Positions 1-63,734 of a stretch of DNA of 64,000 bases are shown one piece after another. The stretch is from positions 3,646,729 to 3,710,728 of the forward strand of contig FN649741.1 in assembly GCA_000310025.1 (NCBI GenBank). The letters run 5' to 3'. The notes beneath the pieces are model-generated. The model ran no database searches, was not told the origin of the DNA, and saw only the letters and a list, made by a program, of their open reading frames with translations. This DNA is from Ectocarpus siliculosus (taxonomy: Eukaryota > Sar > Phaeophyceae > Ectocarpales > Ectocarpaceae). The stretch's first letter is position 1. Each line of letters opens with the position of its first letter. The position numbers and the translations under genes are program-made.

Positions 1-43
1 ACGACGCGGCAGTTACGCCCGATGTACTTGATGCGGCAGTGCC
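1..43 (-). CDS. Possible exon tip of a minus-strand gene running out of the window
   Basis: On the minus strand a splice-acceptor-like sequence (gggagaacag) at about 44-53 is followed by an open stretch reading HCRIKYIGRNCRV up to the window edge. The Cys/Lys/Arg pattern looks more like coding sequence than chance, but only about 13 codons are visible. No family can be named. It could equally be random sequence. Confidence 0.2.
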
Positions 44-3909: not shown

Positions 3910-6900
3910 ATGTCGTCCGAGGCCGCAGCGACGATGGCAGACCCGTCAGGAAGAGAAGGGGATGGCCAAGAGGGCGGCGGCGGCACCCTGGCGGCGGTTC
4001 CTCTGGGGAAGGATGGTCTTCCGCTCCTCACGCACGAGGGAGAGGGGGAGGAGGAGGAATCGGACGAGGACGATTTGTGGGACGTCGACGGGGACATGAC
4101 GGCGGAACAGGTCACAGCCGCGCTCGCGGAGGAGAAACGTAGAAAGAAGGTGCATTGTGACGACACACAACTACAAATGGGTTTCTCCGTGACATAGACG
4201 CAACGGCAAAGATTCGACCGTGTACGACGTATGACACCGCCGTGGCCTAGGTGGTAACCTCGAAGATGATGCCGTGACCAGGTTAGAAGTTCGAATCTCG
4301 GCGACGTGTGTTTGTTCCACCTTGTGTACCTGGTAGTGGAAAGCCCTTGTTCGTGGGTATGTTTTTTAAGGGAGAGGACGGCTGAACCCTTTACGAACCG
4401 TAGAGGAACTCTGGCGTGCTACCCCAGATCGGAGCTCTTGGGGAGACAAGGGTGGCCATAGGACGCCGCTTTAGAACAACTTGGGATGGTATTCCCACAG
4501 ATACCCAGGCCCCAGCAAGTCTCAATTCGCAAGGTCTTACTTGGGCTGTCGCCTCAAGCGTACCACATATCAAGTCCTCCTTACTACATATCAAGTCCTC
4601 CTTGAAGTAACGCCGATCGGAGGACGGTAAATGACGATGAAGAACCTGTCGTGGTCCATAGTTTCGTAGTTTTTCGGACTTAGACATACACGCTGTCTCC
4701 GCGTGGTGTGTACCTGTTGAAACATTTTCCAGCTACTGTATCATCTGTACTGTACGAACGTCCAAGAAAGAGGGACAGAGGGGGAGATGGGGGGGTTGCA
4801 TGTAGATTGAGAATGTCGTGATTCGAAACGGAAGGACAAACTCGACTACTCTCTGATAACACCACGAATAAGTTACCCATGCCGTGGTCCCGTGTGCGTT
4901 GCAGGCCAAAGCCAAGGCTGCGAAGGAAAAGGCTGCCCACGACCTCTGCTTGTCAAATCTTCGAGGCGACAGCAGGCTAGCCTGGAAGGAAGACATTGCT
5001 GCCAGGAAAGCGGCAAGAGATCCACGGAGACGGTTTGCGAGGTAATAAACACACCATGCAGCAGACACATGTTTATAGGCACGCTCGCCGGAACTTTGTG
5101 AAACCTTCACAAGCCGCATGTAACATAAAAATATATTGCCACTCTACTATTTATTGCAGGAGCGAGTTTCAGATCTGTTGTATTGTTTTCGGGCACTGGA
5201 TTCTGACGATTCCACCACCGCAATGGCGTGACCCTACGCCGCTTTCTTCATGGGAGAACGAGAAAATGAAACAGAAAAAAATGGGAACGCCATCTGCGTC
5301 GAAAGTGGACAGTTTATGGGGGCAAGGAATGTATGGCACACGTTTCTGAGAGGTTTCTGTAGGGATGTATAGACAACGAGTAATTGCTGCGGTCATGGTG
5401 TCCACGGTGTAGTATCGCCAGTCGAGTCACATAGGATAGTTTGATAGTCGCGGCAACGTATGATGTACCGTAAACGGTGATCTAGGTAATATATGGACGC
5501 GGTGGTTGCAGTAGTCTTCCTCCATCGCCGTCGATTGGATTGACCGTCTTTTATTTTAATAGTGTGTGCTATCATTGATGAATACTCCCGGGGCCACGAC
5601 ATGGTCCAAGTGGGAATTTCGCATCGTTTATTACTCACCTGGACTACGTCACACATAAGACAACATTTCTCACTGACGACCTACCCCGAATGCGAACCTC
5701 TTTTGGATGGCACCGTCGATGGATGTCGACTGCAACACGGGGTGCGCACAGAATGAAGAACACGGTAAAAGCATTCGCGGCACATGAATGGCAACTCGTC
5801 AAGCATGACATCGAAGAGTTCGTCACACCGGTGTGGGTCAACCAGGAGAGACAAAGGGCGGAATACCTCGGTCGAGTCGCGCGCGCCGAGCGCAGGATGG
5901 GGCGGGTGAGAGGCTGAAAAATGAAAGGGCGTACAAAAGGTAGAGAGTATTGAGAAGAGAACGACTTTCAAAAGCAACGATAGTTCCACCTAATGGATCC
6001 ATGCCAAACAGAGGACGTCCTCAATCTGCGTAGTAAGTGTCCGCAAATACTTCGCAGTATCCAGCGTGTCACCCCTACGTATGGAACGGATCCAGTGAGA
6101 CAGCGGAACGTACTGTTGTCAAAAGCATTCCCAATCGATCGTCGTTTCCCTTTGTGACACCAACAGATTTATGCCGACCTGGCATCAGTGCGAGCAAAAC
6201 AAAAGAAGGCAAAGAAAGCGGAGGCTATGTCATGGAAGAAACGAAAGCAGGAGATAAAGGATCTCCAGGTCAAGGATAGGTTTCTCGGCACTCTCGTTGA
6301 GACGGACGTCACTGAAAAGAGGTGAGAGGCCTCAAGCGTGCTCCGGCGGACCCTCACACCTCGGCAGTACGAGGGAGGAATTCCCATCCTGCTGTTTGCA
6401 GCCGGTATCCGACTCACATAAGCAAAAACTTCGACTGCAGGTTTAACGGGAACAACCAATGCAGCGAAACAACGGACAAATCTGCCGTGTCGCTTGGGAT
6501 AAATATTCTGCATTGATAGAGGTATCCGGTACTCGAGACGAACGTAGCGACGATTTTCCAGCATTCAAATGTGGCCTTATCCTTTTGCCCTTCGTCCGTA
6601 GGCGACGCCTCGCGAGTTGACGTCTTGAACTGCGTTCTGTTTGCTACCGACGAATAATGTACTCCCAGCCTGCGTCTCCGACAAGCTTCCTTCTTGTCTC
6701 GCTACTTTGTTCCTAAAACAACCCCGAGAATCTAGGGAGCAGAAACTGGCCCATTTCAAGCAAAGGGTGCAGCTCGAAATCAAGGATCGTAAGGAGAAGG
6801 AGGAGGAGCGCCTGGCCGCACACAAGAAGAAGCGCTCCGATGAAAAATATGCTCGACGTGCAACACTTCTGAGCTTTTGGGGAAAGGCTCAGGTGCAGAG

Positions 6901-12900: not shown

Positions 12901-15900
12901 AATCGTTTCGGGTTGGGCCTGCCGCTGAACACCAGATTGGTTGGTTGGAGTATGCCGAATTTGCGAAAAAAAAGCGATAGTGTGCCACGTAGAAGTCTCT
13001 GATCGGAGCGTCCAGGCAACTGTCTGTTTGAAAGGCCTACCCTCGTTGTTCTGTCGCGTGGCGCTGGCTCTTTCTCGCCCTCCCGTGCCTGAAAACCACC
13101 GCACAGGTCATGCCAATGCCCATCAATGGTCTCTGGACCGTACGGTTCGCTGTCACGAGGCGAATGCCGGAAGACACCGCCGGCGAGCCCGTGTTCCTCC
13201 CGCGAAGTGATGGCGACCATGGCGCTGGCGGTGACGGGAACAATGCCGAGGAGTTTACTCATGACTCCACCGACTGGGTTTCTGTTAAGATGGGGCCGAA
13301 CATCGCGACCCTTCACCATGTGGCCGACGTTAAGAACGTGGTCAACGAGGACTTGGGAGAGGTAAATAGTGGCCGTATTGCCGTTGGAGGGGTGATCTAG
13401 CGAGGACGAGTGCCTCATTCGCTGGGAAGAACACCTTGCTTTCTGTTCATCTCGGGAGGTCACAGCGCTTGGCGAACTCTGGCACGGAACCTCGAATGAC
13501 CGGTTAGGGGATTTATCCATCGCCCCCGATGACCTTGGACGCGCCCCTGTTTGTAATCACACACAGCTAACACCACTTTTATTTCCGGCCCTTTTTCTCC
13601 GTTCACGCCCATTACATCAACCCTTCCGTCGAGCAAGGTTCGGTACGAGATGAGCCACCACTTCCGCGGCTCTACTCTGGCCTACCGCTTCGATTTCTCG
13701 TCATCATGCCTCTTGCCTGAGGCTCACATGTCGGTGGAGCCCGGGATTTTCGCAACGTTCGAGATGGCGCCGCTTGAGGTATTTTTCCCTCATTAAAACT
13801 GGACAGGCATTGCTTGCCAAGCCTATTTGTACGTGACACGGTTGTATCAACTATCTCCGGACCATTTGGTCGCCTGTAATCCGGGAATTAAGGCCTTTTC
13901 GTTTTGAAGGCAGGAGAGCACTTTCACCATGCACCACCCACACCTAGTTCAAAGCTCCATCTAGGAGAGCAACGCAACATCAGAAACTATTACAAGTCGA
14001 TGATATCCGCGCCATGGTCACATGGAGATTGATTTGAAGACAATGTGAATGACCCGTGCCATTCTCACCGCCATCCTTGCCAAAGACCTCCGGATGTTGC
14101 TTCCTTGCTTGTGCAGTGGGTAGGCAATCGTGCGATCAGCTCGTACGTGAAAGAAGTGCGGCTGGATCTGAAGAGCGCCGAGGCGTCCACTGTCCGTCTC
14201 CTGGAGGACATGATAATGGTGAGGTGAAGAACGAACCCCCAAACAGCTCAAGTATTTATGCTACGTCGATTTAGCCTTACGGCAGATTCCCGTAACAAAT
14301 GAAGAAGTCCTGTGTGGGATTTGCTTGTCTATAACCAGTAGCTCCAGAGCATAACTCTGAATATGAAAATATGAGAATCTACATGCCATTATTGAAAACA
14401 TATTCACTGGGTATCGATATTTGATAGCGCCGCAACCACGGATGTGCTAGACTCAGTATCACAGAGAGCTTCCAGCCATATATGAGGGCAAAGAAGCCAT
14501 GGTGTGACGAGCATATGGGCTGATGACCTCTATACGCAGAGGGCGGGCAAGAACGACCGTACGTCCAATCTTGTTTCAACGTGGTTCAACATGTTGGTCG
14601 TCGTCCATGACGCTGCTATTGCTGTCCATAATATTGTTGTTGCTGTTGTGGTAGTCGAGAACATAACCGTTCTGATGTGTATCCTCTATACCCCAGCTCT
14701 CACTATTCTACTTTTTTTCGACTTCTACCTTGTTTGCGCGTGTTCGGCCCTACCACACTGCCAGGCGGAGACAGCAGAGGGCGATATCTGGGACTCGAGC
14801 GTTTTGCACGCCACCCTCCAGCGCTATCCCCGCAAGGAGTATTGTCGCCTCGTGAGGGAAACCCTTGAGGCGATGCGCATCAGGGAAGCGCAGTCCAAGC
14901 GCGACCAAGCGCGCCTCGATGACATCTATGCTAAGGTACTATTGATTTCCCAGGGACCGGGGTTTTGGCTGAACGTAAGATCATCTCTCCCACAAGTGTC
15001 ACGCTTATAACCAATGATGTTTTAGGAGAAAGCGTCGTGACTTAGTCGTATGACGTAATCGTATGCCGACATAATCGAAACGAAGGTGTAGTCGTCGTTT
15101 TTGAGTGAGAATAAACGGATTGGTCGCTAGTTCTAGAGTATTGGCATGCATACTCAAACCCATCATGGCCTCTGATTTCTCTCTATTTCGACCGTGGGCT
15201 CTCCTACCGCCCTTGGCAACTCACACTTCACGTTGTCAAGGCCTTGCTGTTTCAGGTCTGAGCTTCCTTTGCTCCCTCTTACCTTTCGGAAATCACTCGC
15301 AGCCAAGCACATGGCGATGCAGGTGTTGATGGTATCGATACCCGTGGCCTTGGCTACGGTGGGTGCGTACACCCCGGCACCACCAACCTCTACCTTGGAG
15401 TAGTTCAAATTTCCAGCAGAATCACCGCTCTTCGATGCATAGTTGATACCCTCGTATGGCACCTGCCACCCTTCGTACAATGTGGCGTTCGGGAGAAATG
15501 GCAAAAGCATTGGGCTGGCCAAGCCACTGAACGGTTGCTGAGGAGCTTTCGTAATACAGGTTGCACGCACAAGATTGACTCCAAGATCCTGCTGATTTTT
15601 ACCACGATATGTGCACGTTTTACCCAACGTATTCGTATGCCTTTGTTTGTTTCTTCCTCATGCTCCTGCATGGGGTGTATCGGCACAAGCGCAGATGGTT
15701 GGTGGCGATGTCCGTGGCAACAAAACGATAAGAGCACACGGAGCTACGGCTAGCTCAGCGAAAGGGCACAAAGCGTTGGACGCCGCTGAGGTGGAGAAGC
15801 AAATTCATCGTCTTCCCCCGGACGAGAGAAGGGTGCGTTATCTGCAGAGAAGGTACCTTGTAGTCGATGAGTCAGACAAGAGGCCAAATGAATGATTATG

Positions 15901-18900
15901 GAAGGTTTCGAAAACATGGCGCGCTCTTCTTTTGAGTTTTCTTGATGTTGTCCCGCTGAACGATTTCGCTCATACAACCCCCTCACGCGAACCAAGCTTT
16001 AGCGTTGCCTTGGCTCATAGTGGTTTGCGACCATGTTTCGGAGGTATGGCATATCAACGTCTGTTTACTGTAGTAGCGGCGATGAAGTCAATGGCAGATG
16101 CTTCGGTAGTAGCAATCAAGCAACAGGGCCGGCTGTTGTCAACGCACTTTGGAACGGAAAACCCATATTATTGACGTCATGCTCCGAAGGGTGCAATCGT
16201 ATTTGTCGGTTATCTCAGAGGAGATAATCTAGCAGGTTGTCGATAAGAAGGTGATAAATTTTGGCAGAGTAACTGCGCAGTCAATAATCGGCGCTGGTCG
16301 GTAGCGAACGATAACACACCCCGCCTGAAGTCCAACCGGGAAGATAGGGACTACTTGGCCTCATCTTCGTCCGACCGACGCTTTTCGCCGACATGTGGGT
16401 GGTACTTGTGACGAGTTGTTTCACTTTGCTGACTTGTGGCGGGCTTGTCTCTTTCCGCCTGTACTACTGTTCAGTGGATTGCTGCTCACCACACAGCCCA
16501 CACACTTACGCCTACTCGACCACCTGCCCACCCACCTGGCCGTTCCCGTGATACCTCCTTGCCTCACGAAACTAACAAAGCTGATACGGTCTATGAAAAG
16601 CAAAGATGGTTATCTCAAGCGCAAGCGGGATGCACAGCAACACCGCATCGCAGAAGCGGAGGCGATGGTCGGCAGGAAGATAGAGGTGCGTGCATGGCAG
16701 TGATATATCGTTGCAGGGTACAGCCCACTGGACACCGTTATCGGTACCTCCTACCTGGGCATCTTGTCTCGCGGAAAGTCACTCTACCCGTGCGCATGTT
16801 CGAGACTTGCCGACGAGGACACCGACATGTCGCCCTCACCAACAAGCACGTTCATAGAAATAGCGACAGTAGCAGCAAAAGCAGCAGCAACAGCTATGTA
16901 CGGCATTGAAAACGACAACGACAACGACAACGACACAACAACAAGTCTCACATGAATCCAGCAAACCAAATCGGGAACAGACAGTTAGCGATCAAACCTG
17001 AAACTGACCAAGACGAACATCAAACAACGAATATGTCACAGATTTTCGACGGCGCGGCCAACGTTTGGCGAACGGTTGTCATAGCCTCGGTCTGCGTCCG
17101 CTGGGTGGATCTTGGCACGAAGCTGGTGCTGAGACACGTCGTTCGTGTTCTCGGCGCCGAAGAAGACGAGCCTGACAACAACAGAACCGAAAGCGAAAAC
17201 GAAACTCGAGGACAAGGAAACAATCAGGTGGAGGGGCGCCGAAAAAGTGATGGTGGTGACGGTGATCGTAAGGGAGAAGGCGGGAGTAGAGGGGGCGGTC
17301 GCGACAACAGTGTGGCGCCGAGATCGAGGGCGGCGACCGCGGAGGTAGATCTGAACGAGGTGCGCTGGGCGGAGTACACCGGCAGACCGAAGGAACGAAA
17401 GCCGAGCAGATCCAACGCCGCAAAGCTAGCAGGTAATCGTTCATGGAGCATACTCTCCGAGTATTGAGTCAGTGTACTGACGTATTATTGGCCACCTAGA
17501 TGGGTTTTACAGTCTGTGCACGGCCGTCTGACGTGGTTCCTGGTAACCTACGTTGCCCCTTGTTGAGCCAAATCCTCTCATCTCTCAATGCCCTCCCACC
17601 TGACGCCCCTTTCCCGCTGTTTGCGCCTCATTCCCCGTGGTATGAAAGAATTCAAAGTCTCCGGCAGCGATGCCGTGTTACAAAAGACGGAGAAGGCCCT
17701 GTTAGCGCTACAACACGAGCTGGGCGAAGAGGTTCAGGCGTTGAAGAAGCGGAGAGACATCGAAGACACAGCCGTCAGCATGGCGAAAGACGTTGAAACG
17801 AGCAAGGTGTGACAGTGCCGGTGAACTAAACGTGTACAACCGTTACTCTTGTCATCTCTGCAGCAGTTGCGGCCATTTATTCATCATGCGGAGTGATTTG
17901 TGCCAAGATGCCGAGACGGACTGGACATGGTCGCACACGGTGTCCCAAACGAAAAATTATTTTGCCGCGCAAAGGGCACTTCATCATATCCCGTGGGCCC
18001 TGGTCAGGGTGACGCATTCCTGTCGAGTGTTTCGCTGATGAAGCCGCACACGAAAGATATTACTTCTTCGAGGCGCTCCATCCTGTTCCAAACCATTGGC
18101 CCGGTTAACAAACAAATGCAGGTTAAGGTGCACAGTACAGCCGAGGCCACAATCCTGTCAAGATCCCAAAAAAAAAACAAGGCAGAAATTCAGACCCTAG
18201 CGAGGTCGCTGCGGAATGACTGGAAGCTCGGGATTGGCGCACCACCGTCCGGGAAGCGAGCGACGGCAGGGTGAGCGAGCAAAGGGGATAACACATGCAC
18301 ACTAGGCGCGAACCGCGTTGTGTTCATCACCGCAACGTACAGGTCGAGGGCGGCTCGTCGGCGCGGTTCCGCCGGTACTTTGATCGTTCTATGTTGCGCG
18401 TTTGCTGGCGAGCGGCTGCTCCAATTCCAGGCCATCATTTCACAAGAAAACACACTGCGATGATACCCGGAAGGGAGTGTGCCATCTTCTGTCAGCTTTT
18501 CAATTAAATTGAGTATACGACATTTATGTTGAGGGCTCATCTTGAGCCACCGTACCTGTCATCATCTCCCGTTCTTGCCATCTATCTTCTCTTGTTGGAT
18601 AGGTTGTTGGTTGCTGTGCTTGCCCACACATGAGTTCTGTATTCTGAAACGTGCAATCGCGACCCCCGCGAATGACTTGCCACTTAGAGTGGCGCTGTCC
18701 GAGGCTAGGAGAAAGTGGGTGAATGATCAAATCGCCACTGCGGTCGGCCGGTCGGAGCAACAGTTCAAGTTCCTCGCGGCCGAGACGGCAGCGAGGAGGC
18801 GCAAAGAGGTAAGTGAAAGAGCGAGTGCAGGCGAATACCCAAGGAAAATTGGGATTTTCTGCTGCGTACGCATAGATTCTGTTTCGCCTCCCTTGTTTCG

Positions 18901-21900: not shown

Positions 21901-24900
21901 TCGAGGGAGCAAGTGCTTGACAAGGGTGTCACCACTCGGCCGGGTGACAAGGGTGGGTTGGACTCGTCGTCACACATGAGTAGCAGAACAACCTCGGTAA
22001 GGGGGCACGATGATTGCAACAATAGGGAGAGCGCCATCACCTTGGCTCGGGACGACGCTTGCTTGTGGGACTTGGCAGTCGATCGCGGTACACGGACCTT
22101 GTGGGTGCGTGTGAGGTGATAATGGACTTTCCCCGCTGTCGGAGGTGTCGCTCCTCTCTTGTCGGCCTGATTTGAGGCCGTGGATGAAGTGTTGTAAACA
22201 CGGTCACCTCCCGTGCAGGGGCGATTCAATCTAAAGAATCACGTCCGGACTACAATGACAGCGATTCATCAAGTTGTGTGCCGATCGTTTGCCATTTTGC
22301 GTAAGAAACTCAGAGCGCTTGGACAAGGTGTCGTCAATCAGGAGTGTTGGCGGCAGAGAGATCTAATCCTCTCATCGTTACGAGATATACTCACGTGTAC
22401 GTTCAGCACGACAATCCAGCTGAAAAAGTAACAGCTTTGCTGAAGCGTCGCTGTACCTCATACCCTGACGACTAGCACCAGAAATAAACAAATGCCGCGC
22501 GAATGTGTTCCGCATGGACCACACCATTCCTTGTACTTAACAATTGCTGTTTCACGTTCGCGCGCAAAACGTCCCTGATTGGCGCTGTCGTAGGGCTTTT
22601 TGGTGGCAACCGCAAACGCCAAGCTGAGGGACGCCACTGACCAACTGCGGGACGTGCTCCTCCACAGGCTGAGGAGCGAGGCCAGGATCGAAGCGATGGA
22701 GAAACGCCTCGCGGTAGTGAAAGAAAACCGTCACAAGTACGCCGAAGGTAGGTGATTGTCGAGGTCGAGCTACTTCGAGTTCTATCCACTAATTGCCTCC
22801 GTTGGAATCGAAGTATCATCCCGATCCAGGCGGTCGCTCACTCCCTTGAGCGCAAGCCTCAGAACGGTGCAGCTATACGTACACTGCACATGCACCGAGG
22901 GCCAAAACATAGCGAGACTTCCTGACAGGGCAGGACACACACGAAGGTCCAGGGCGAGGGCATGCTGAGCGTCCGCGGGAGTTGTTCGCTACGAAACTTT
23001 ACTGGGATGAATATTGACCGCCGATTCACGATTTAGTATGGATGGATTCGATACGTCTTCACCCTGCTCCCGGAGGTGCTTTGCACCTCGTGCGCTGTGC
23101 AACCTCGTTTCCTTGTACGTCAGACGGCCATACAACTCGAACGTACCTAGAACGTTGAGTAGCCGCGTTCAGAAACTTAGTCTGTGATCTATTTGAATGA
23201 TGACCCCGCGCCGTGCATCTCCTGGCAGCGTCGGCACAAGAATCACACAAGACAAGACCATGTAGAGATCAACTAAGAGCGGATTGATACAACGAAATCT
23301 CCCCAGATCATGCTCGGCTGACGCACGAGATAGAACTTTTCTACTACACCAAGAGGGACAGCCAGGTGGTGACACCCATCGGCTGGGCCACCGTGAACAG
23401 CTACCGCGAGGAGGACCAGATGCTCATCGTCACGCTCCCATTCTGCCGGCCGTCGGCACGAATGTGGATCCCTGTCGAGAAGGTTTGAAAAGAAGGCCTC
23501 GCTCAAGAAAAAATAGTTGTATGCCACGTTAAGCGACCGTCAGCGGTCTTGTTTTTCTTGCTGAAGTATTAGGTGATGGGGCCGGGGGTGGGGCGGAGAC
23601 TCTATTGAACGCTTCCATAATACTAGGTTAGAGCTTAACGTTCAGAAAAAAGTCGTGTTGCGGTCAGTCTACTTTCCTCATGTAAAACCTATCGCCCAAC
23701 GATTAGGTTTGCCCCCTTCCTCAAGCTTTCAAGCGTATTTTTTTTCTTTCTCGCAATCATATACGTTAAGGTGTGGCAAATGGATCGCGCCGGACAGCAA
23801 GCGGAGAGCGTAGGTATGGAGGCCGAGGACATTCATTGCCGCCTGCTCTACCGTACTGAGCGGGTCACCATGACTCGCGAGCGCGGGAATGTGCTCACCG
23901 AGGAACTAAAGGTGAGCGATGGGAATACAACGGAAAACACCTCGTATATTGCACGTGCTCATGTTGCTGAATCGAGGGATGTGCTAGTCAGACTCCCGGA
24001 ACCTATGTTGCACTCCAGCAGCAGAAATGTTCCGGAAAGTGCGCTTGTTCATAGCGCAAACACGAGACTTTTGTGACATGTCTGAGCTCAAACCTCATGC
24101 GCCCGTTTGGGGGGCTTTGTCGGGCTGGACCGACTCCTCGACAATCAGACCCGGGAGATGATGCGTGAGGAGGCCGAGATCGCAGACGAGAAACGCCTCG
24201 CCGCGAAGATGGTCGCTCAGGCTAAAGTCACTGGGCCCCGGCTGGCGACAATGAGCGCCATCTCAGAACATCGGAACCGATGGGTCGCCTACAAGGTTCG
24301 TAGGCCAAATGCAGAGAAATGCCGCCAATGTTTCGACTTAGGGTGATCGAACTAAATATCCGTCATGGGTAGCGTGACCGGCAGGGTAAAATACTGGTGC
24401 TTTTGCCTGCTTGGTGATCGCTGATTGTCAGCAGAGTCCCAAAGCAGAGGGCTGCGCTAGCCCCCGTATTAGCATGTGTTCGGTATTCGAATGTCAATAC
24501 CACGATCTCCGATACAGCCAAACGATGGGTCCACTCTGTTGTAATTCTTCCTACATTTTCTTTCCTGCCAAAGTACTCGTCTACAAAGCAAGCTACATGC
24601 TTCCACACTCTCGTGAATTTACGGGTGCTGTACGCCGCCCGTGTGACTGTTCACGCCGGAGAAGAGCAACTGCTTCTTGGCATACACACGATCCTTGCCT
24701 TGCTCGTGCGTACATGCAGGTGCAAAAGGCCGTCGAGCAGAGAGAGAAGGACATCGCAAAGTGGAACGCGAAGACCAAGGGCGGCGACGACGAAGACTCC
24801 CTCGAGTCCAACCCAAAGCCTCGCAAGGTACCGTACAATATGGCCACCGTAGGACGCCGTGCACTGACCTTGGCCGATGGAATTCGTGGGGTGGACTTAC

Positions 24901-27900: not shown

Positions 27901-30900
27901 AAGCTTGCTAGAGCGCGGTCTAAAGGAGGAAGCCAGGTCAAGGATAGCAAAGGTAAGCGACGGTGTTCGTGCAGATCTCGCCCAAAACGTAAGGTAATAT
28001 GTTCTTGCAACGGGTGCCAAGCCTTCAGAGTTCACCCTCGAAAGAAGTGTGCGAAACGTCAACCGGATGTTGCGCTGGCGAATGTCGTGAAATTTCTCAT
28101 GATCAGCTTGAAGCCCTTAGTCAATACAGGAAACCCTTCGAGTACATTTGCATTATTCTGCCCAAGTGTGCCCGACGGAGATACTCTTGATCGATTGCAC
28201 CCAAAATTAGCCTCTGAGCAATTCGCAAGCATGTATTGATTACCGTAAGCTACGGAGTATTCCCCCCGGGGAGGGGATCGTTTTTTTTTCTGAAACCAAC
28301 CCCCTCGGGGGGAAATTGACGTACCGCTGGGGGGTAGTGTTTTTTTTCCAACGCTACCCCGGGGGGAAGCGCCCCCCGGGGGGTTGCGCAAAATAATGAT
28401 GGTCCACACACCACACACACAGCGAGTGGTGAAACCGAGATGGATAAGGTTTACGAGCAAGCGTTCCACAAAAAGAGGGAGGGGGAACGTAAGAGCAACA
28501 AAGACGAAGAGAAAAAAGACAGTAAGAGGTACTATTGCCTAAGCTCATGCACGAGAATTCGCTGTTTGTCCGCTGGAATAAGCTATGTTTACGCTTCGGT
28601 TCTACCTTGGGTTGTGAGATCCAAAAATGAATACGATTTTTCCCTTTGTGCGCAAGGTTTCGTCAGCATGCTATATGGTACGCGTCAGCTGACTCCAGGG
28701 ATGATAAATGCAAGAAATAGACAAACGAAAGCATTTCACCCATAAAACAACGGCGAGGGCCAAGTGACAAACGGTACACCTAAATCTCGCTCGAAGCGCA
28801 GATCTGCAAGTCAATTTTCCGTCCCATATCATGCTTTTTGTTCTCCGCGATGCACCAAAATCGACTCAGCAAGTAAGGGAAATACATCCCCCCCCGGGTG
28901 AACTCGTGGGAAAAATGGTACCCCGGGGGGAAATTGACATACTCGGGGGGGATCTTGTTTTTTTTGGTCGAAAACGATCTACCCCGGGGCTAAATCAACG
29001 AACTCATGCTTCCAGGCCGAAAAGGTAATGGGGGGGGGAGATCTCTAACCCGGGTAACCCGGGGGAAAACTCCGTAGTTAACGGAATATTGGTTCGTCCC
29101 CGCCTCTCCACATGTTGAGTATAGACGTGCGCCGAGATGGCCAAGGAGGAAAGGGCAACGAAGGCCTTCAACTCCTGGGAGCTGGTCATGATGCTGCGAG
29201 AGAAGAGAAGGATGATGGACGAAGAGATGGAGACCAGGTGCAGTCTAGTGTCTCTAGGAAACAGGCCAGCCCAAATAAGGAGATCTGGAACATACATAAC
29301 GTAGGGCAAGCTGAGCTGGAAGGTCTTTCGCTTCTCCATAAGAGAATAAGTGTAGAGGATGTAAATGAAGCACACGCAGCTGGCCATTGATGATATGAGG
29401 AGAACAGCCAGAGTTTCTGGGGAACAGTGGACAGAAGACACGCACCAAACATTTTGCTCGGTCTTCGAATGCAGGACAGAGGAGGCACAGAACATTGGTC
29501 AGGGCTTTTGTATTGCTTAAATGTATGCTACGGTTGTTGCTTACCCCTCGTGAATCGAACACTGGGCGCTCCTTTTTACTAAACTAGTCTCTGCGCCAAA
29601 ACAATGTGGACCGTAACCAGGCGGTATATGAGAGCATTGGAGATGCAAAGACGAGAAGAGGAGCGGCAGAGCAAGCTCAAGACGGCGGCGGAGGCGAAGG
29701 AAGAGCGGCAGAGGAAATGGCTCACCATGACGGAGGAGGAAAAAGAAGTGTTTGTTGAGGAAGAGAAGGTCGCCAAGAAGCAAGAGTGGATCAAGAAGCA
29801 GGTGAGACCAGCTCATGGGCGCACAAGCGCGAACATGCGGGTTTGACGAGTTGGTGAGTGCGCAAGCGACGAACCTTGCGAACACGTCCATACAACCGTT
29901 CCGCCTTAATCGGCTAAAAAAGCTCCACAGGATCAGTTTCCCTCACATGTATTCTCCTGGTGCTCAACAGGCGGTGTTGCTGGGACTTGCGCCTGCCGAC
30001 GATGGAGACGGCGCTGAGGGTGGTATCGGCGACGACAAAACCTACGCGTCCGCCGCAAGCAGTCGCGAGAGAAGGCGGCTGTCGATCAAGGCGGCCAAAG
30101 TCCGCAGGAGGAAGCAGGAGATTGAGATCACGGCCATGGAAGCCGAGGACGAGCGCAGCAAGCTTGAGAACCGGGCTTACCGGGTGGGTTACTGACCCCA
30201 CCTTTGGTTGCTAGCAGGAACCATTGTTCTCCTGACAGGCGTCGAGCGGACTGTTCGTTGCCTTTAATATGAAGTTTGGGGTTCGCGCGCCACGCTTGTC
30301 ACTTGAGAGTGTCGACGTTCTATGATGAAGGTGTGCATAATGCGATCTGAATGGCTTGGATGAGATGAGGTCGCACGAGACCACGTGGCGGACGAGAGGT
30401 GGCGTGAGTGTACCGCGCATGATGTGGTGACGACGGATGCGCTAAGAAACACAGAGGGAAGCCTAAAGAACCCGCCGACGTTTGAGCCGAACGCTCAACG
30501 AGCTTTAGACGTAACGATCCGTTCCGTGCCAACCAAACTCCGTACCCTGTATCACCGATATGAAACCACAAACTCACCGCAGGAGATGCTTGAGGTGAGG
30601 CTTCAGCGGCAGATCGAGATGGCTAGGAGGGCAGCGGCTATGAAGCGCCAGATGGCCGCCGAGGTTTCTGCCGCCGGAGGTGGCCAAGCTGCAGCGTCGA
30701 TCGTAAACTCAATGGACAGTGGTAGCGGCGGCGGCGGCGGCAGCGGGGGCGGGGGCGGGGGCGATGGAGATGGGGACGGAAGCAAAATAGAAGCCGGCAG
30801 CATAGGCGTCGGAGGAGAGGAAGGGGGCGGCTTTCTTGGTGGTGGCGGCAGCGAAGACACCGGCGGTAGTTTCAACTTGTTCGATGTGAGTTGATGGTCC

Positions 30901-33900
30901 CTTTCCTGTTCTTCGTCTTGGTGCTCGTACTCATTGCGCTGGGAGAACTACAATGAACAGCGTTACCTGTTGGCCACGCGCGTCTGTTTCCTCGCGCTTT
31001 GAGTGCTCCAACGCTAAAACGTTCTTGGAAAAGGGCCAAGAGATGCTCACCAACTTCTGCTGCTGTTCCCATGTCCAAACTGTTCACACGTTCCAAGGAC
31101 GACTACGCTAGCAGCTCTGAGTCGGAGCTCGGGGAGGAAGATCGAGCTTTCGCCGAGGACATGGGACTGCCGACGGGCGACGTCGACCTCGAAGACTCAG
31201 ACCACTCTTCGGATGATGAAGAGGGCGGAGGAAAGGCGGCGAAGAAAGCGGCCAAGGCCAAGGCGGATGCGGCCGCCGCCGCTGCAGCTAAAGCTGCGGA
31301 GACCAACTGGCTAGGCGGAGGGGGTGGCCGTTGGGGAGGTGGCGGGGGCGGCGGCAACAAGCAGGCGAAAGAGGCTGAAGAGGAAACCGCCAACAACGGT
31401 AACGAACCCACCAATAATGTTGAGGCTGTTACGCCTCCTGGGTCTCCGGCTGCAGAGTTAGGTATTGGTGGTGTGGAAGGGGGGGAAGACGGGAGAAGTC
31501 CTGTGGTCGCCCCGCTAGAGGAGGAGGGGGCGGCGCCCCTGGCAGAGAGGGCAGGGTCGGTGATGCTGGCACGAAACGGAGTACAGAATGGAAAGGAGCA
31601 CGACAAGAACCACGACGGTGAGATGTGGTCTGCTTACCCCCTCCTGTTCCACTGCCAATGAAAAGTGCCGTTTTCGTTCCGTGGAAATGCGTGCGAACCC
31701 GCTCCAAACCGCAAGGTTGCTGGTCCACCCGCTCGTTGTAACTTTTGCCGTCTTCTTTCACGCAAAACATGCGTTCTTCCTTGGGTTCTGTCGCGGTGCG
31801 TTGTCGTTAGTTTGTGTTTCCCTCCTTCCCTCTGCATTAAAAAAAGGAAAAGGAGAAATTGGCGGGACGTTCGGACGTGCTGCATCTCCCGCCGTCTGTT
31901 CCCGCCCTTCAACCCCTTCCACAAACGAGAACTCGATGGACGAATGGGACGACGCCGAGGACAGGGGCGAGGGCAACATTGACAGTCGTGGTAGGCCAAT
32001 AACGGCAGGGGAGCGAGCGAAAGACAAGCGCCGACGCGGCAATGGCCAAGGTGGGAAGGATTTCGGCAACGAAAGGGCTTCTTCAGCCCCTCCTCTTCGC
32101 CTTCCAGGTAGCCGCGAAGGAAATAGTAGGGGCGGTCGCGGTAATGGAGGCCGCAATGCGGCAGAAGGGGCGAGGGGGGGTCTCGGGGGGCGACGGCGTA
32201 TGCTATCTGACGACGAGGAGGACAGCACAAGCACGGAGGAAGAGACCAGCAGCGACGAGGTACAACATTTTCTGAGACGGGTATTGGGGTGATGCACTCC
32301 AAGCTGTGATGCCTTGCCTAAGTCAAAGTGCATCGGGAATCGTGCAAAGATTGTCCACGTTGGCGGATGGGTGCTGGGGTGGGTTGATGTGTTGGCCTGG
32401 AAGGTTTCAGTGGTGGGAAAACCCAGGTAGAGAGTACCACCGAAAGTTGACGGCGGGTTTGATCAGAATGTTCCCCACTATTAGCTCGATTTTGCTCACC
32501 ATGCCCGAATACCAACCAAAACTCAGGATCGTGGCGGGCACGGGCGACATGTGGCGACCAGGAAACGAAAGCCGGTCGATGGCGGCAGTGCTACCAAGAA
32601 AAAAAAGGCCAAGAAGAATGGCAAGAAGACAGCAGTTGCTGCAACCCTGGCTTTGGCGGAGGCGGAATCTCTCGAGGAAGAGAACCCGGAACTAGCACAA
32701 ATGGTCCAGCAGAAAAAGGTAACCACGTTTTACGATTCGATTGGCCCGCGGTGCCTGTCTGTATCGAAAATTGCATCGTTTCCCATGGCCTTCTCCACCA
32801 AAACAGAGAGAACTCTATGAACCATGCTTACCAACACTACACGTTGCACACGCGCCGCTAGTCGAAAAACTAGAAACCCTGTGCGACCCACGACCAATTC
32901 GTGTCAAAGAACCGTCGGCATTGCCCACACACACTACCCGAGAATGGAGCGGCCGAAAACCAGTGGTGTAATAATATTCAAGCGGCGCGCCCGAACCATG
33001 GCGATATAATATTGTGACGGAAACGTAGGTGATCGACCGGCGCATGAAGCACAGGCTCGGAAGACAGAGACAGCGCGTGATCAAGCGGCTGCGCAGGGCG
33101 AAGGAAGTTCGCGAGGCTGAGGACAAGAAAATTGCCATGAGGCTAGAGCAGGCGAATCAGGTACCTCCGAGCATCACCTGACGACGAAACCACTCGAATG
33201 TTTTCCGCTTCGACACGAGTGTCAATTTTGGTCTGACGCATGGTTCGATATTCGTTGGGTTGAGGAATTGTACCAGGGAACGCCTGCCTCATGCGCGGCG
33301 GTGCGCTCAAATTTCGGCGATACCGCTCTACAGCACCAGCACGAGTGGAGCATGGCGGGGGTTGAGAAGTCCAGCTCATCGAGACACACTGACTGCCCAC
33401 ACCGCTTTGTTCTATCGCGACAAATGCGTATTTGATTTTATTCTGCGCAACTTGCAAGATCCTACATTGCTCGTCACTCTGCGTTTTCCCGGACACACGC
33501 TTGAAAAGATGGCCCAGCTTGCAGACGCCAAGGCGGAATTGGCGTGGCTTGATGCGGAAGGAGAGTCGAGGAGGCTGGAAAAGCGGCTTGTCGGGGAGAG
33601 GGAGGGGCTGCGAAAACTTCGGTTATTCTGTCAGACCAAGGCTCGGGAAGAGATCGCTTGCAAAGAGGAATCGGTGTTGAGGTAAGGCATGCGGTATCGG
33701 TTTATGATACGGCATTATTCCAAGGTGTGCTGAAGTGCAGGTTGGCCGTTTGAAAAGATGTAGTTGGGGCCATCGGTTCGTGCCGGAACACCTTGGCATG
33801 CTCGGGCTACGCAGTCCACAGGACCATTGCCCTATCAAATACCGGTAGGCTCTAGTCTTCAGTATTATTTATGATGCTTCATAGGACAATGCCCTGTCAA

Positions 33901-36900
33901 GTACCAGTAGGCTGTAGTGTCGAGGTTTAACCACACTGCTGCACGCTGATAGAAGTGACCGACGAGTTAAACAAGAATAGACACACCGCACAAATCCCGA
34001 GCAAAAGCCTCCGTGGTCCCTACAACGCAAGGTCTCGGATAAACCTGGGGACAAGGTCAATCTTGTTGGTGTCCGTGAGTCTGGCGTTGACTCTCCGGCT
34101 TACAAAGTTGGCGCTCGTTCTTTCGCCCTGACACCAGAACAAACGAGGCGAGAAAGCGGCAGGCCGCGCGCGACGATGCCTTTACATGGCACGCCAGGTG
34201 CAAGGAGCAGGAGCACCGCACCTTGAAGTGGAAAATCAGAGTACTGAAGGACACAAAGTTCTTCAACGGGAGGGTCATCACCGGCCAGTACCAAAGGTGA
34301 TACCCAAGGGTGGGGCCTTCACTGAATGCAAGCGTTGTTGCATTTCGGTTGGTTGGTGTACCCGCTTAGCAGGTTTGCGTCGTGAATGCGTCGAGTTCGG
34401 GATGTCTTTTGGTTGAGAACAACATATTTGGTCAGAATTGATCTCTTTGCAGGCTGGGAGACTGTCGATAGGAGACTAGTTTGTCGGGTTGATTCGACGT
34501 GCTATCCTCTCCATAGTATGTCCATCGCCAGCCCCCTTGTAGGACCTTGACAAGGGCGTTCTTCGTCTCAAGATGCCCCGACCACATCTGTCCGACCTCC
34601 TTTATCCTGGCTACCCAAAATCGGATGAAGATGGGAAACGGATTGGATATATCCGCACCTCCACTCAATGTATTTCAAGGGCTTGGTGGATATCGTGGTT
34701 AACAGGGCCGAGCTCATCGGGGCAGAACGGCGCATGATGAAGGTGAGCGTGCTGCTGTAGGGGGTCACGTGATGGGATCCGTCAGATGGACCCAGGTTCA
34801 GTGAAGGATGGCGTGAACACGCACGTGCTCTTGGGGTCACAGGGCAGATAATGTTTGTAACTGGGTCCAGGCTCAAAGAGGCCCGTTCTACGTACCACGC
34901 CAGCCGAAAAAGCGCCTAGTCAGCCTGTGATTCCTTGAGCGTGAAATACTTATCCGTGTTTCCCCAAACGCCGCAGAAGTCCAATACTGCTTACCTCCCT
35001 TCCCACATCCGCTCGTTTCCGGCCGATCATAAAAAAAAACGTTACATGGCGTATTTCAGATCCACGACCGACTGGTGAGAACGTCACAAGAGATAACCAA
35101 GAAGGAGACGTTGGTGTCCAACCTGTGGAAGAAACAGCGGAGGCGCGAGCTTATCTATCTCAGGCGGTCGGAGCTGGGAAAAAGAATATTTGGGAAGTCG
35201 CAGAAGAAGTATCTCCGGAAGGTAATCCGTCGATATCCACAGGGAATTGGTTCGATTAAATTGCGGCACGAAGTGTCGCACCCAACCTTGCAGTGTCCTT
35301 CCCCGCCTACACAATGACTAAGCGCACGACGCAAGATAACCCCAAAATTGTCGGAGATGTCTCAATATGGAATACGAGTGGTGCTTTGCCTCTACAGGAA
35401 TGTGTGGTCAATGACCAACTACATAAGGCGAGCAACCATGAGTACGCCCCTACCCAATCCCACCACACGATGCACTGTCTTCCTGCCGTACATTGTACGC
35501 GCCCAATATCCGGCGTCTGTCTGCCATCCGTTTCTTCCTTTCCTGTCTAGGTGTTCGAAGCTTGGACAGGCTTCCACATGTGGCTGCGAAGCATGCGAGA
35601 GGCCTTCCAGCTAAAGTACGGCGTCCTCAAGCAGGCGAGTGCGAGCAAACGATATCGAACCATCTGTTACCGCATTCGATGTGTAACTGCGCGATTTGCA
35701 GATTGGGACTCACTGCTTGATATTTTGATGACTCCAGCATACACCGACACAATATGTTTGTGTGTGTAAGCGGTAGGATACGAATCTCCGACATCTCCGG
35801 GGGCTACGCAGATAGATATGAGATATGTGATGGGTGTGACGGACTTGACGCGCTAGGCTCTGCTTCCTGCCCATTTCTCACTCTCTAAACAATACAAGGA
35901 GCTTGAGTCAATCCGTTGTGCAGAAACGCTCTCGACAAGAGTCCGCGAGCGTAATAACGCAGTACACGCGCCGACACCCGAAATACAACACGGCCATGAA
36001 CCAACCAATACTCATCGAGATCATGTTTCAATTCGATGCGTCCAAGGCCCGACCGTCTCGTGGTGCCTTTGCCTAAACGTCACGCTAAAATGCCTTTGTC
36101 TCTTCATTGTCACCTGGCAGGAATTGGACCTGAACCGTGTGTACGAGGAGATCGACGCCGGATCGCAGCGGTCGCGAAACACACGACCCCTCTGCGAGAA
36201 GACTGGAGCCCTCCCAGTGACGAGAAAGAGCCTGTTTCATCGTTTCAAGGTCACACACATTTACATAGGGGGTTCTACGGCGGGGAATTTAAATGTTTCT
36301 CGTTGACGACCGACCAGTGCTCAACGTTGAGTGGGCAGTAGCCCACAGATATCCCCACGTCGGACCCTTGGCAACTGTATTCCTGGCGTATCGGCTGTCT
36401 TTCTGGGCGATCCAAGGCACTCTCGGGCAGTAACAATGCTTCCCATGCACCTCTAGCTTCTGCCGAGGAGGGTGAACGCCCGACGTGCGCGAAACGATTG
36501 CGAAGGATGGTTGCTGACAAGCGGTTTCACCTAAGTCACCACAGGAACGAGGATCACGTCGCTCCTATCGGCAACCCTTTGTCATGCTCTTCCTTGTTCG
36601 CCCTTTGTGTGTTCGGGGAATCGCCGTCTTGGTGTACATGTGTGCTTGAAATTCCAGGAGCGTCCGATTCGATGTCGGAACTGCAAGGAGCTTTACCTTG
36701 AGGCTCAGAACCACGACCTTTGCTGCGCCTACCACCCGGGGGAGTACAAAAGGGCTTGCCCTCGCAGCTGTCCTGGGCTCACGGAAAAGTGCATGAGCCA
36801 CAGGTGATGCTGCTTGAGTTACAGGGTTCTCTTGACGTGGCCACCAGTCGATTCGCCTAAAGTACAATCTGTGTGGTTCTCTTTACCAAAGTGATCGTAA

Positions 36901-39030
36901 CAACACCGGACACCACCCTGTTCAACGTACCACAAAATCGAAACTAATTGAAGGGTGATGCGGTGGACATGCTGCGACAAGAACGATCCAGGATCATGGG
37001 GGTCATCCGGGTGTAAGACTCGCTGCCATTTCCCGCCGTTCGATGGCCACCCGAAATTCGTCGATATTGTTCGAAAGGTGGGTGCGGGTTGCCTATCATT
37101 GTTCATCGGTACACTTTCATGCTTGTGATAGGCTGCTCGTTAAAATGCTATCACAAGATGTTACATGTATAGCTGTCTCGAGCTAAGGCACTTTCACAAC
37201 CTGCCCACGGCCCTACTATACGCTGGTGCGTCTTTCACGTGCACGGTGACCTATCAGGGAGCTGGCGAAGATAGAGGGGCGCTCGCTGCGTTGGACAGGG
37301 AACTTCACGAACTTAGCTCGATGGACATGCGACAAGCGGCGTTGCAGGTGACCTCAGAACAGCTACATGTACACTGTTAAGCCAGCGTTTGGCCTGGGGC
37401 TACATATGTACCTCTTTAGAGCTAACACAACCATTCTAGGGTCTACACGCTACCCTCATACCCTTGTCGAAGCCAGCAGGTGATCACGTCGTGGGTTAAT
37501 TCCGATTCCGAAAACCTCGTTGAGAGTCTTGCCTGCACGGTAATCGGTCTTTCTACTGTATATCTCCACCAGTGTTTCGTTTTTCGTTCTTTTTGTTCAC
37601 GCCAAAGACTATTGTAGACCAATGGAACCGCGTTGTGTTTTTGTAGGCGGCTACTGTGCATTCCAGTGGCAATTTCCGACGCCACATTTCGACAGCTCTT
37701 TCGCCTGAGGAGCCGAGTCATTATTTTTTTCTTTTCTGGCCTTTGATAATGTCCTATAATTCAAAGCACCCTCCGGACTATTGTTGAAGTTGTGAATTGT
37801 CCTGCGACAAACAGTTACAAATTTGATATCAGAGCTCGTCAAACCATTCCCAATGAGTATTTCCAGACGAGCTTTTGTTTCGTTTGAGGACTGATTTCGG
37901 ATATGATCGGTCTGCCCGTTTTGTTCGTGCAGACGTCGAGCGTAGTTGGTTTTCGTTTGGAAGCTGCGCCTTTATTTTCTCGAGGTGTCGCTATCCATTG
38001 TTCGAGACTGATGCTACATCGAGACTACGAATCTATTGATGGAGCTTCAAAAAGTGGTATCATATTGAACTATGGTATTGCAAGTATCACCACATGGTGA
38101 AAGGAACAACACCGGGGTATCGCACTGGTGTTTCTCTCGTCGATATTTTTTTTGGTCGTACAAATGGTCCTAAGGAATATATCGTCACCCTTCAGAGCGA
38201 AGACTTGGCGCAACTCGACCCATCTTCCCATCTCAACATCAAAATGCTCCTTGTCACACCCTACTCTCCAAATGGCGTTTTTCTGCTGGGCGCACCGGCA
38301 CGGCCGGGTTGGAATAACAGATGAAGCAGCAGCAGCTGGCAGACATCGCTGGCGAGCTTCAAAAAGAACGGGACATCGTAGCGCGCTACAAAGACATCAA
38401 ATTTGTATGATTTGGCCTGCCACACCGGTACCGTGACGCGCAAGGTAGTCGTTCGGCGTTGGCCATCGTGGTGCTCGTCCAAGGGGGAGAAAACAGCCTG
38501 TTGTTACCATGTCGCCTTGATTGAAAGTAGAAATGTTCGCAACGTAGTTTCCTTCCGCTGTGCTACACGAAGCGATCGAATGACACCCCAAGTGGTCAGA
38601 AGCTTGCTTTCGAATTTATGACTCTTGCATCGTTGTCCGACGGTTTGTTCTTTGCGATCGGTGCGTGATAAAGAATGGAAGCCGTGTTGTATCTTTGGTG
38701 TCTCCTATTGAACGGCCGGACGGCATCTGTATGGCATTCCGACGTCGTGGTGATGCTTCAGCTGTAAGTCGAGATCAACCTCAAGCTGTTGAAGCGAACT
38801 AGGCGGAGACATAGCTTGTGCGCAGAACCAAGGCAATAGAGATTGAATGTAAATTGGCTGCGTGTTTATGAAAACAGCGGCGTAGGAATTATTTCCCTGC
38901 ACAAGTCTGAAGAGGCCCCAGCGATTTCCCAGCGGCAGCGGACGACACCATGAAGAGGAGTGCCGAGTCGGTACGCGAGCTCTACAAAGGCGCAATGCGT
39001 TGGGAAGGATGCACAGATGATCCTAAATAG
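3910..39030 (+). CDS. Giant multi-exon coiled-coil protein with His/Cys, YREED and CHORD-like modules, family unknown
   Basis: About 57 exons can be joined from the ATG at 3910 to the TAG at 39028-39030, giving roughly 3,250 codons. Exon borders are GT-AG apart from two GC donors, and splice phase is preserved at almost every junction I checked, which argues for one gene. The protein starts Ala/Gly/Asp/Glu-rich (EEEESDEDDLWDVDGD). It then consists mostly of Lys/Arg/Glu/Ala-rich helices predicted to form coiled coils. These are interrupted by a His/Cys module (about 1,430), a TPIG...YREED module (about 1,790), acidic Ser/Gly/Ala-rich linkers (about 2,350-2,700) and a CHORD-like Cys/His module (about 3,090-3,180). 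It ends RWEGCTDDPK. No signal peptide or membrane segment is evident, so it is probably a cytoskeletal or scaffold-type protein, which is inference. Junctions at 13778/14086 and 23911/24090 are unresolved. Annotation as two or more genes remains possible. Confidence 0.7.
4235..4305 (+). other. tRNA-like sequence (box A and box B) in intron 1 of the giant gene
   Basis: TGGCCTAGGTGG at 4243-4254 matches the RNA polymerase III box A consensus. GTTCGAATC at 4290-4298 matches the core of box B, about 35 bases downstream. CGCCG (4238-4242) can pair with CGGCG (4299-4303) as an acceptor-like stem. The D and T stems do not pair well and no clear anticodon arm is seen. It is therefore a decayed tRNA or the head of a tRNA-derived SINE rather than a working tRNA gene. 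Confidence 0.35.
4564..4602 (+). repeat. 18-bp tandem direct repeat
   Basis: The sequence acatatcaagtcctcctt occurs twice, separated by three bases, inside intron 1 of the giant gene. No coding or regulatory role is apparent. Confidence 0.6.
12679..13637. other. Intron of the giant gene holding an unexplained 286-codon antisense frame
   Basis: Between the exons ending at 12678 and starting at 13638 the minus strand is open for 861 nt (12660-13520). The predicted protein is rich in Arg, Pro and Ser and shows no motif I recognise. The plus strand carries several overlapping open frames too. This could be a decayed mobile-element fragment, a small nested gene or chance. Confidence 0.3.
16911..16936 (+). 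repeat. AACGAC hexamer microsatellite in an intron
   Basis: Four to five tandem copies of the hexamer AACGAC lie in the intron between exons 16581-16685 and 17042-17432 of the giant gene, after an AGC-rich stretch. Confidence 0.7.
19193..19742 (+). other. His/Cys module spanning two exons of the giant gene
   Basis: Across the intron 19303-19666 the protein reads IPNFGRALQANIGCSHTRTK, then AWGDKYGSGLR joined to CRDCGMEATRMHKD. The split Arg codon (CG plus A) restores phase. The C-x-H...C-x2-C spacing, with conserved-looking Trp, Lys and Gly residues between, suggests a small metal-binding or structural module embedded in coiled coil. Metal binding is inference from Cys/His spacing. I cannot assign it to a named zinc-finger family. 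Confidence 0.45.
23334..23482 (+). other. TPIG...YREED...LPF module exon of the giant gene
   Basis: This exon encodes VVTPIGWATVNSYREEDQML followed by IVTLPFCRPSARMWIPVEK. The alternation of hydrophobic residues with a Gly turn and an acidic YREED turn is typical of a small beta-barrel. Similar TPxGxGxV...YREED...V.LP sequences occur, as I recall, in other large stramenopile proteins, but this is memory rather than a search result. Phases on both sides (GAA split 1/2 at the start, phase 0 at the end) fit the neighbouring coiled-coil exons. Confidence 0.5.
24720..33681 (+). other. Giant gene, exon block 3 (coiled coils and acidic/glycine linkers)
   Basis: Exons: 24720-24827, 25782-25889, 26482-26625, 27255-27347, 27851-27952, 29125-29237, 29588-29801, 29971-30183, 30583-30885, 31098-31617, 31853-32259, 32527-32718, 33029-33160, 33509-33681. 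The first coils are short, in-phase exons of 93-144 nt. Exon 30583-30885 ends in a Gly/Asp repeat. Exons 31098-31617 and 31853-32259 are disordered-looking Ser/Asp/Glu/Gly/Ala tracts (SSSESELGEEDRAF, SDDEEDSTSTEEETSSDE). Exon 32527-32718 has a Lys-rich block (KKKKAKKNGKK), a possible nuclear localisation or RNA-binding patch. The intron 27953-29124 holds the hairpin-rich inserted element. Confidence 0.65.
28240..29091. mobile_element. TIR-bounded non-autonomous element built of G/C-tract hairpins with poly-T loops
   Basis: The left end (28240-28267, core gctacggagtattcccccc) and the right end (29064-29091, core gggggaaaactccgtagtta) are imperfect inverted repeats, matching at about 23 of 28 positions. 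Inside are repeated units: CGGGGGGAAATTGAC at 28306-28320 and again at 28924-28938, each followed by a G6-7 tract, a TGTTTTTTTT loop and a CTACCCCGGGG arm. No transposase frame is visible. A lysine/glutamate-rich frame inside (28440-28528) resembles a host exon but fits neither splice phase. The flanking exons 27851-27952 and 29125-29237 join in phase 0 without it. The element is therefore most simply an insertion within an intron. Confidence 0.5.
33818..33922 (+). repeat. Diverged tandem duplication, about 62-bp unit, in an intron
   Basis: The segment around 33818-33860 (ggaccattgccctatcaaat...) is repeated at 33880-33922 (ggacaatgccctgtcaagt...) with several substitutions and one indel. It lies between exons 33509-33681 and 34138-34296 of the giant gene. 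Confidence 0.55.
34138..39030 (+). other. Giant gene, exon block 4 (C-terminal part to the stop codon)
   Basis: Exons: 34138-34296, 34631-34742, 35060-35221, 35551-35634 (GC donor), 36121-36249, 36658-36803, 36954-37077, 37258-37347, 38321-38404, 38956-39030. Exon 34631 gives WETDWIYPHLHSMYFKGLVD, joined in phase by a split Arg codon. Exons 36658-37077 carry the CHORD-like module. The last two exons are short helices (MKQQQLADIAGELQKERDIV, then SVRELYKGAMRWEGC). The 38956 acceptor was chosen because it is the only nearby AG that keeps phase 0. The next AG upstream (after 38939) would shift the frame. Confidence 0.65.
36658..37077 (+). other. CHORD-like Cys/His zinc module near the C-terminus of the giant protein
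   Basis: Two exons joined by a split Arg codon encode IRCRNCKELYLEAQNHDLCC, AYHPGEYKRACPRSCPGLTE, KCMSHRVMRWTCCDKND and SGCKTRCHFPPFDGHPKF. The order C-x2-C, CC.YHPG, W-x-CC, GC...C-H matches the pattern of CHORD domains (C...C.YHPG...W.CC...GC..G.H), which bind two zinc ions and occur in RAR1 and CHP proteins. There are extra Cys residues (CPRSCPG, KCMSH), so this is a CHORD relative rather than a canonical copy. Zinc binding is inferred from residue spacing. Confidence 0.6.

Positions 39031-62074: not shown

Positions 62075-62136
<62 letters not shown>

Positions 62137-63691: not shown

Positions 63692-63734
<43 letters not shown>

Follow-up and report, generated by a model that had tools for sequence, protein, structure and literature searches.

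An apparently intact giant gene in Ectocarpus siliculosus, predicted to encode an unclassified, helix-permissive protein with a CHORD-like module

The CHORD domain of RAR1 and CHORDC1 (PF04968) binds two zinc ions and HSP90, and known CHORD proteins are short. Lamins have a long heptad rod, and vimentin and tropomyosin served as our coiled-coil references. Brown algae are reported to produce flagellated spores and gametes (PMC7457493), and flagellar genes are described as a co-expressed module in Ectocarpus species 7 (PMC12629598). Within a 64,000-nt stretch of the E. siliculosus genome, hereafter the window, we modeled a gene on the forward strand (3910..39030) that bears some likeness to several of these systems. 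The model has 58 exons and 9,489 coding nt including the stop codon, and its product has 3,162 aa (calculated 354 kDa; pI 8.7). In this curated, splice-aware Viterbi model the frame stays open for 3,162 codons, from the ATG at 3910 to a stop codon ending at 39030. Upstream of that ATG, the nearest in-frame stop lies at 3847, with no intervening ATG. Of the 57 introns, 56 are GT-AG and one is GC-AG, and their phases 0, 1, and 2 number 36, 8, and 13. The median exon is 148 nt and the median intron 405 nt; the autosomal median intron of Ectocarpus is given as 524 bp (PMC12477816). A preliminary description of this DNA had proposed these gene bounds, about 57 exons in consistent phase, and roughly 3,250 codons. 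The splice-aware model bears out the first two claims, with 58 exons, and its single frame of 3,162 codons comes near the third. That this brown-algal locus is an apparently intact, splice-consistent giant gene is well supported.

All exons are on the plus strand. Exons 1 to 10 lie at 3910-4149 (the first coding exon, starting at the ATG and encoding an acidic N-terminus), 4905-5041, 5752-5905, 6167-6321, 6736-6892, 7221-7723, 8310-8458, 8773-8908, 9491-9612, and 10177-10538. Next come exons 11 to 20, at 11227-11324, 11730-11881, 12515-12678, 13107-13361, 14117-14223, 14465-14501, 14765-14935, 15695-15832, 16581-16685, and 17042-17432, followed by exons 21 to 30 at 17649-17806, 18122-18270, 18688-18808, 19082-19302, 19667-19742, 20064-20186, 20502-20734, 21564-21735, 22594-22747, and 23307-23482. 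Exons 31 to 40 occupy 23771-23911, 24149-24295, 24720-24827, 25782-25889, 26482-26625, 27255-27347, 27851-27952, 29125-29237, 29621-29801, and 29971-30183; exons 41 to 50 occupy 30583-30885, 31098-31617, 31847-32050, 32108-32259, 32527-32718, 33029-33160, 33509-33681, 34138-34296, 34706-34742, and 35060-35221. The last eight, exons 51 to 58, are 35551-35634 (with the sole GC donor of the model), 36121-36249, 36658-36803, 36954-37077, 37258-37347, 38321-38404, 38815-38848, and 38933-39030, which carries the stop codon. In our judgment, the small exons and the final three exons are the least certain parts of the model.

The gene finder combined codon log-odds with donor and acceptor consensus, the splice consensus being set by hand. 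Unsupervised gene finding with a loose penalty produced a single 812-exon artifact, which was discarded, and a tighter run gave a 77-exon gene (1268-46683) that was too long at both ends. Curation started from 66 exons of the tighter run, from the ATG at 3910 to 38970, with the first exon trimmed to that ATG. After reading the frames we removed nine exons of 4 to 52 nt, added four (11227-11324, 36121-36249, 36658-36803, and 36954-37077), and shifted three boundaries (where the 28440 and 35551 exons begin and where the last exon ends), arriving at a 61-exon draft. The final 58-exon model is this draft minus three exons that derive from a repeat.

That repeat is an 842-nt interspersed element (28243..29084; no strand assigned) within the intron between 27952 and 29125, and it is noncoding for this gene. 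It has terminal inverted repeats of 27 nt that are 85% complementary, and it looks like a nonautonomous DNA transposon. Parts of it recur across the genome, in at least 40 of 93, at least 40 of 90, and at least 40 of 97 candidates, this locus included; among the matches scored, copies elsewhere are ∼81 to 93% identical. The draft exons 28440-28521, 28667-28677, and 29016-29024 were rejected because they fall inside this element. When the repeat is skipped, 27952 joins 29125 in phase 0 and the frame is kept. The gene finder was misled by exon-like stretches of this element, which are open and charged, a reminder that an intronic repeat can mimic the exons of a charged protein.

Given that the draft stretch 28440-29024 turned out to be repeat sequence, we considered whether the whole chain might be an artifact of chance open frames or of a repeat-derived or decayed gene. 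We scored each half of the gene with codon use trained on the other half. The held-out Viterbi scores were 307.6 and 299.6 nats, compared with means of 19.3 and 21.0 for dinucleotide shuffles (20 per half; standard deviations of 6.2 and 7.2; maxima of 31.8 and 42.6) and scores of 29.2 and 17.0 for the opposite strand. The coding chain is thus far above chance. The held-out runs recovered 22 of 29 and 20 of 29 exons exactly, along with 4,828 of 5,140 and 3,683 of 4,349 coding bases. Exact exon recovery is partly circular, since we could see the protein while editing the exon list and chose the splice consensus by hand. The shuffle comparison is less circular, although there too the splice consensus was hand-set and codon training used the remaining half of this gene. 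All 57 introns have GT-AG or GC-AG ends, internal stops are absent, and the exons that were searched match this locus alone. Together with the margin over shuffles and the reverse strand, these observations largely refute an artifactual origin, which we regard as highly improbable.

Whether the locus holds one gene or several is a question on which the sequence model has little power, and its answers vary between runs. When trained on all draft exons, the Viterbi model split the locus at 15895/16593 and at 31661/31936 into three genes. A break costing no more than 3.5 nats was possible in at least 12 of the 43 introns tested, counting the 12 cheapest. In held-out runs on the draft, the first half fell into two pieces (break at 16227/16593) and the second into three. 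With corrected exons, the first half became one gene of 32 exons (3910-22755), and the second half was again in three pieces, as in every held-out run. The weakest link is the 748-nt intron at 15833..16580 (plus strand), where a gene break costs the model nothing in the all-exon and draft held-out runs; in the held-out run with corrected exons, this intron was unbroken. These results could reflect two or three same-strand tandem genes read as one. In that case the boundary would most likely fall in the 15,832-16,581 gap: the upstream gene would span ∼1,100 codons, and the next would start at about the ATG at 16,593. We consider this rather unlikely, although it deserves to be weighed. The corrected first half argues against it, and the break at 29048/29137 coincides with the repeat. 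Of the nine draft introns that measure at least 700 nt, eight have no in-frame ATG upstream within the intron, although an ATG inside an exon, such as that at 16593, could still act as a start.

Genomic context also bears on this question. Tandem intergenic regions in Ectocarpus are reported to have a median length of 2,293 bp, and neighboring genes are reported to tend to lie on opposite strands (PMC7784034). By that measure, the 31661/31936 gap, at just 275 nt, is short for a boundary between tandem genes. The longest internal gap of our model is 1,172 nt and contains the 842-nt repeat. The nearest flanking genes with recognizable domains are both on the minus strand: an FHA-domain gene piece at the left edge of the window (1-308; PF17913, E = 4.9e-5) and an RluA-type RNA pseudouridine synthase on the right (∼40180-42317; PF00849, E = 2.8e-23), which is convergent with the giant gene. 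Because no gap exceeds 1,172 nt, set against the reported median of 2,293 bp, and because both neighbors are on the minus strand, we favor one gene (PMC7784034). The locus is probably one gene, and a single transcript is favored, not proven.

The predicted protein is rich in charged residues (35%). Stretches of 28 residues poor in proline and glycine hold 2,016 of its 3,162 residues (64%), compared with 47% (standard deviation, 2.8%) after shuffling; the chain is therefore helix permissive, and a long helix is plausible. Like tropomyosin and vimentin, the protein is long, charged, and helix permissive, and it has one sustained coiled coil, at residues ∼1630-1735 (21637..23371, plus strand). 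It differs from both in the strength of its heptads. In the best register of the corrected model, heptad contrast was significant (P = 0.05) in 22 of 212 segments, with a mean z of 0.26, whereas the same measure gave 25 of 40 segments and a mean z of 2.22 for the vimentin rod. Tropomyosin, for which the comparison was made with the draft model (z = 0.25), reached a z of 3.40 over 37 segments. A Fourier test in 84-residue segments (13 of 112 at P = 0.05) agreed with this weak heptad signal. One further local peak lies at residue 479. Two stretches in draft numbering, 2865-2924 and 2926-2975 (mean z of 1.18 and 1.69; five and four segments), were rejected after the smoothed corrected run gave values of at most 1.5. 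The almost continuous coiled coil of the preliminary description therefore does not hold, heptads being sustained at ∼1630-1735 alone. Since the heptad signal is weak along most of its length, a large part of the chain may be disordered. Searches for other periodic or short features yielded no clear signal: FxxW motifs numbered 8 against an expected 5.55 (standard deviation, 2.14), IQ motifs 0 and IQ-like motifs 1 against an expected 0.32, and salt-bridge periodicity ranged from z = -1.9 to 1.8.

As judged by eye, five candidate compact islands, which we call Modules A to E, interrupt the chain. Compact modules had been noted previously; we likewise see candidate islands, five of them instead of three. 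Module A (13107..14223, plus strand; residues ∼844-943) is rich in W, F, and V, spans two exons, and appears compact by eye; its best match among PDB sequences, at E = 0.3, was taken as chance. Module B (16662..17179, plus strand; residues ∼1107-1160) and Module D (23318..23476, plus strand; residues ∼1718-1770) are short and beta-rich looking. Judged by eye alone, B looks SH3/Tudor-like and D SH3-like. Against PDB sequences, the best match of B was a kelch protein (E = 0.058), taken as chance, and D had no relatives at E = 10. Module C (19244..19742, plus strand; residues ∼1442-1485) has a CxH ... CxxC cluster split by an intron (19302/19667) and is a probable zinc ribbon. It resembles C1 and zinc-ribbon domains in this cluster and in weak C1 matches, to the Pfam C1 domain (E = 0.15) and to PKC-delta C1 among PDB sequences (E = 0.28). 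Unlike them, it stays below the Pfam cutoff (12.4 versus 26.5 bits) and covers part of the profile only. Farther along lies a low-complexity region (30670..33059, plus strand; residues ∼2252-2690) that is Gly rich and acidic, with Lys/Arg clusters that look nuclear-signal-like by eye.

Module E (36664..37077, plus strand; residues ∼2974-3058) is a Cys/His module encoded by exons 36658-36803 and 36954-37077. Its residue order, C-C-N-C-YHPG ... W[ST]CC ... GC ... H, is that of CHORD. Aligned to one CHORD copy of the same genome, it reached a local score of 59, against a mean of 27.9 for shuffled sequences, of which 1 of 1,000 did as well; the alignment is confined to the domain's first half. The other CHORD copy gave a score of 37, which 46 of 1,000 shuffles equaled. 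RAR1 CHORD was the nearest PDB sequence, at a nonsignificant E of 0.56. These likenesses are set against several differences. Module E escapes the PF04968 profile, which finds true CHORD places in this genome: the genome scan gave 12 matches, 3 of them over the cutoff, with places on C8 and C14 and none on C16, the contig of this gene. Searched alone against Pfam, the module had no CHORD match at E values up to 1, and the best tblastn match of the module to the CHORD loci of the genome was not significant (E = 0.47). Its first Cys pair is Cx2C, compared with Cx4C in the genome's own CHORD, and it has a longer Cys-containing loop ahead of W[ST]CC. We therefore call Module E CHORD-like, not CHORD. 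For the CHORD-like C-terminus proposed in the preliminary description, there is support over the first half of the domain, and a PF04968 match was not found. Together, Modules C and E probably form two zinc sites, as predicted from their residues. Two CHORD places of the genome, C8:2813084 and C14:1036892, have equal scores of 56.3 bits and are perhaps a duplicated exon or gene.

The protein as a whole had no match over the cutoff in Pfam (the 61-exon draft searched as four tiling pieces, with three module regions repeated) or in NCBIfam (three pieces). Five sub-threshold Pfam matches (E = 0.09 to 0.38) were taken as chance. Seven pieces compared with PDB sequences gave nothing below E = 0.05, the best being at 0.058, and residues 47-330 and the draft stretch 1780-2300 had no match at E = 0.1. 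A Tektin-3 match to a C-terminal stretch (E = 1.1) was likewise taken as chance. The protein resembles ciliary filamentous proteins of solved structure in a general way, through its charged, helix-permissive composition, whereas the PDB sequence matches of the pieces compared were nonsignificant. The gene is unclassified within the libraries searched, Pfam, NCBIfam, and PDB sequences. In this sense the unknown family of the preliminary description is supported, as a family unknown to these libraries, of which the last two were searched with pieces only. Among the papers listed by our literature search, titles and abstract openings did not name such a protein, and we make no claim that it is absent from print.

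The genome (189.5-Mb assembly, 492 contigs) has at least 150 EsV-1-7 Cys domain matches over the cutoff, from 150 of 880 candidates scored, whereas none of 14 control genomes had any; this family is expanded in brown algae and patchy in other groups (PMC7457493), which fits a brown-algal source. Within this genome, all significant exon matches fell at this locus, in 4 of 4, 6 of 6, 17 of 17, and 18 of 18 cases in separate searches. A further search gave eight matches, four below E = 1e-10, all at this locus, and four at E = 0.57 to 3.1 that were taken as chance. Two of the latter loci had E values of 5.5e-5 and 9.5e-5 in a 32-kb set searched without composition correction; both lack the YHPG core and a second half. 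For the pieces searched, and for matches at E = 1e-5 or better, the gene is single copy; these pieces spanned residues 47 to ∼330 and ∼429 to about 100 residues before the C-terminus, the low-complexity region excepted. In collections of viral and prokaryotic contigs, 9 and 2 and 6 and 21 pattern stretches, respectively, were found and none was confirmed, as expected, and these negatives weigh little for a eukaryotic gene.

What might such a protein do? Because no enzyme or motor family scored over the cutoff in Pfam, and given the charged chain, one dimerizing coil, and small docking and zinc modules, we propose that it would be a scaffold. The long, charged, helix-permissive chain would pair through the coiled coil at ∼1630-1735, and the small beta-rich and zinc modules (A to E) would serve as docking sites for partners. 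Less confidently, we suggest that the scaffold would act in the microtubule cytoskeleton, where the flagellar apparatus of spores and gametes is the likeliest site. The preliminary description had also raised a flagellar, centrosomal, or cortical scaffold as a possibility. The sole pointer to a flagellar site is the size and scaffold-like build of the protein, together with the flagellated spores and gametes of the alga's relatives. One gene encoding a nonenzymatic scaffold for the microtubule cytoskeleton, with the flagellar apparatus as its likeliest place, is a tentative reading, possible and still well short of probable.

The Lys/Arg clusters of the low-complexity region count against a flagellar role, as they look like nuclear signals. 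They could instead mark a nuclear scaffold of the nuclear-lamina, pore-basket, or chromatin-associated type, in which the Tudor-like Module B and the zinc modules would contact chromatin; the Tudor/SH3-like look of B and the acidic, Gly-rich linkers fit such a role. However, such clusters are commonplace in proteins rich in Lys and Arg, no Pfam chromatin family scored over the cutoff, and a long heptad rod is absent here. We judge a nuclear scaffold unlikely. The same holds for a large, nonflagellar organizer elsewhere in the cytoplasm (cortex, trafficking, plastid, or secretion machinery), for which the modules would be generic. A more specific version of the preferred flagellar reading would place the protein, as an undescribed giant scaffold, in the flagellar root or transition region. 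Its CHORD-like zinc module would be a diverged one, accompanied by a second zinc site of the ribbon type, and stramenopiles with flagella would have kept the protein, so that it is present wherever flagella are; this we find doubtful, more so than either alternative. Giant unclassified proteins are a possible hiding place of lineage-specific cell architecture. If the gene tracks flagella, it would open a way into the flagellar apparatus of stramenopiles; otherwise it would simply add to the large algal genes that lack a classification, set apart by an unusual CHORD-like appendage.

Two further genes with recognizable domains lie to the right in the window. An NAD-dependent sugar epimerase gene (∼47572-53670, minus strand; PF01370, E = 1.6e-33), whose surrounding gene model is rough, looks GDP-mannose-3,5-epimerase-like by eye only. 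Near the window end is a protein disulfide isomerase-like gene (∼61022-63958, plus strand), two stretches of which match the thioredoxin domain (PF00085, E = 2.3e-51); its rough model probably includes a (GA)n tract (62067-62149) wrongly. A 72-bp unit is present in two tandem copies at 43605-43745, with 94% matches.
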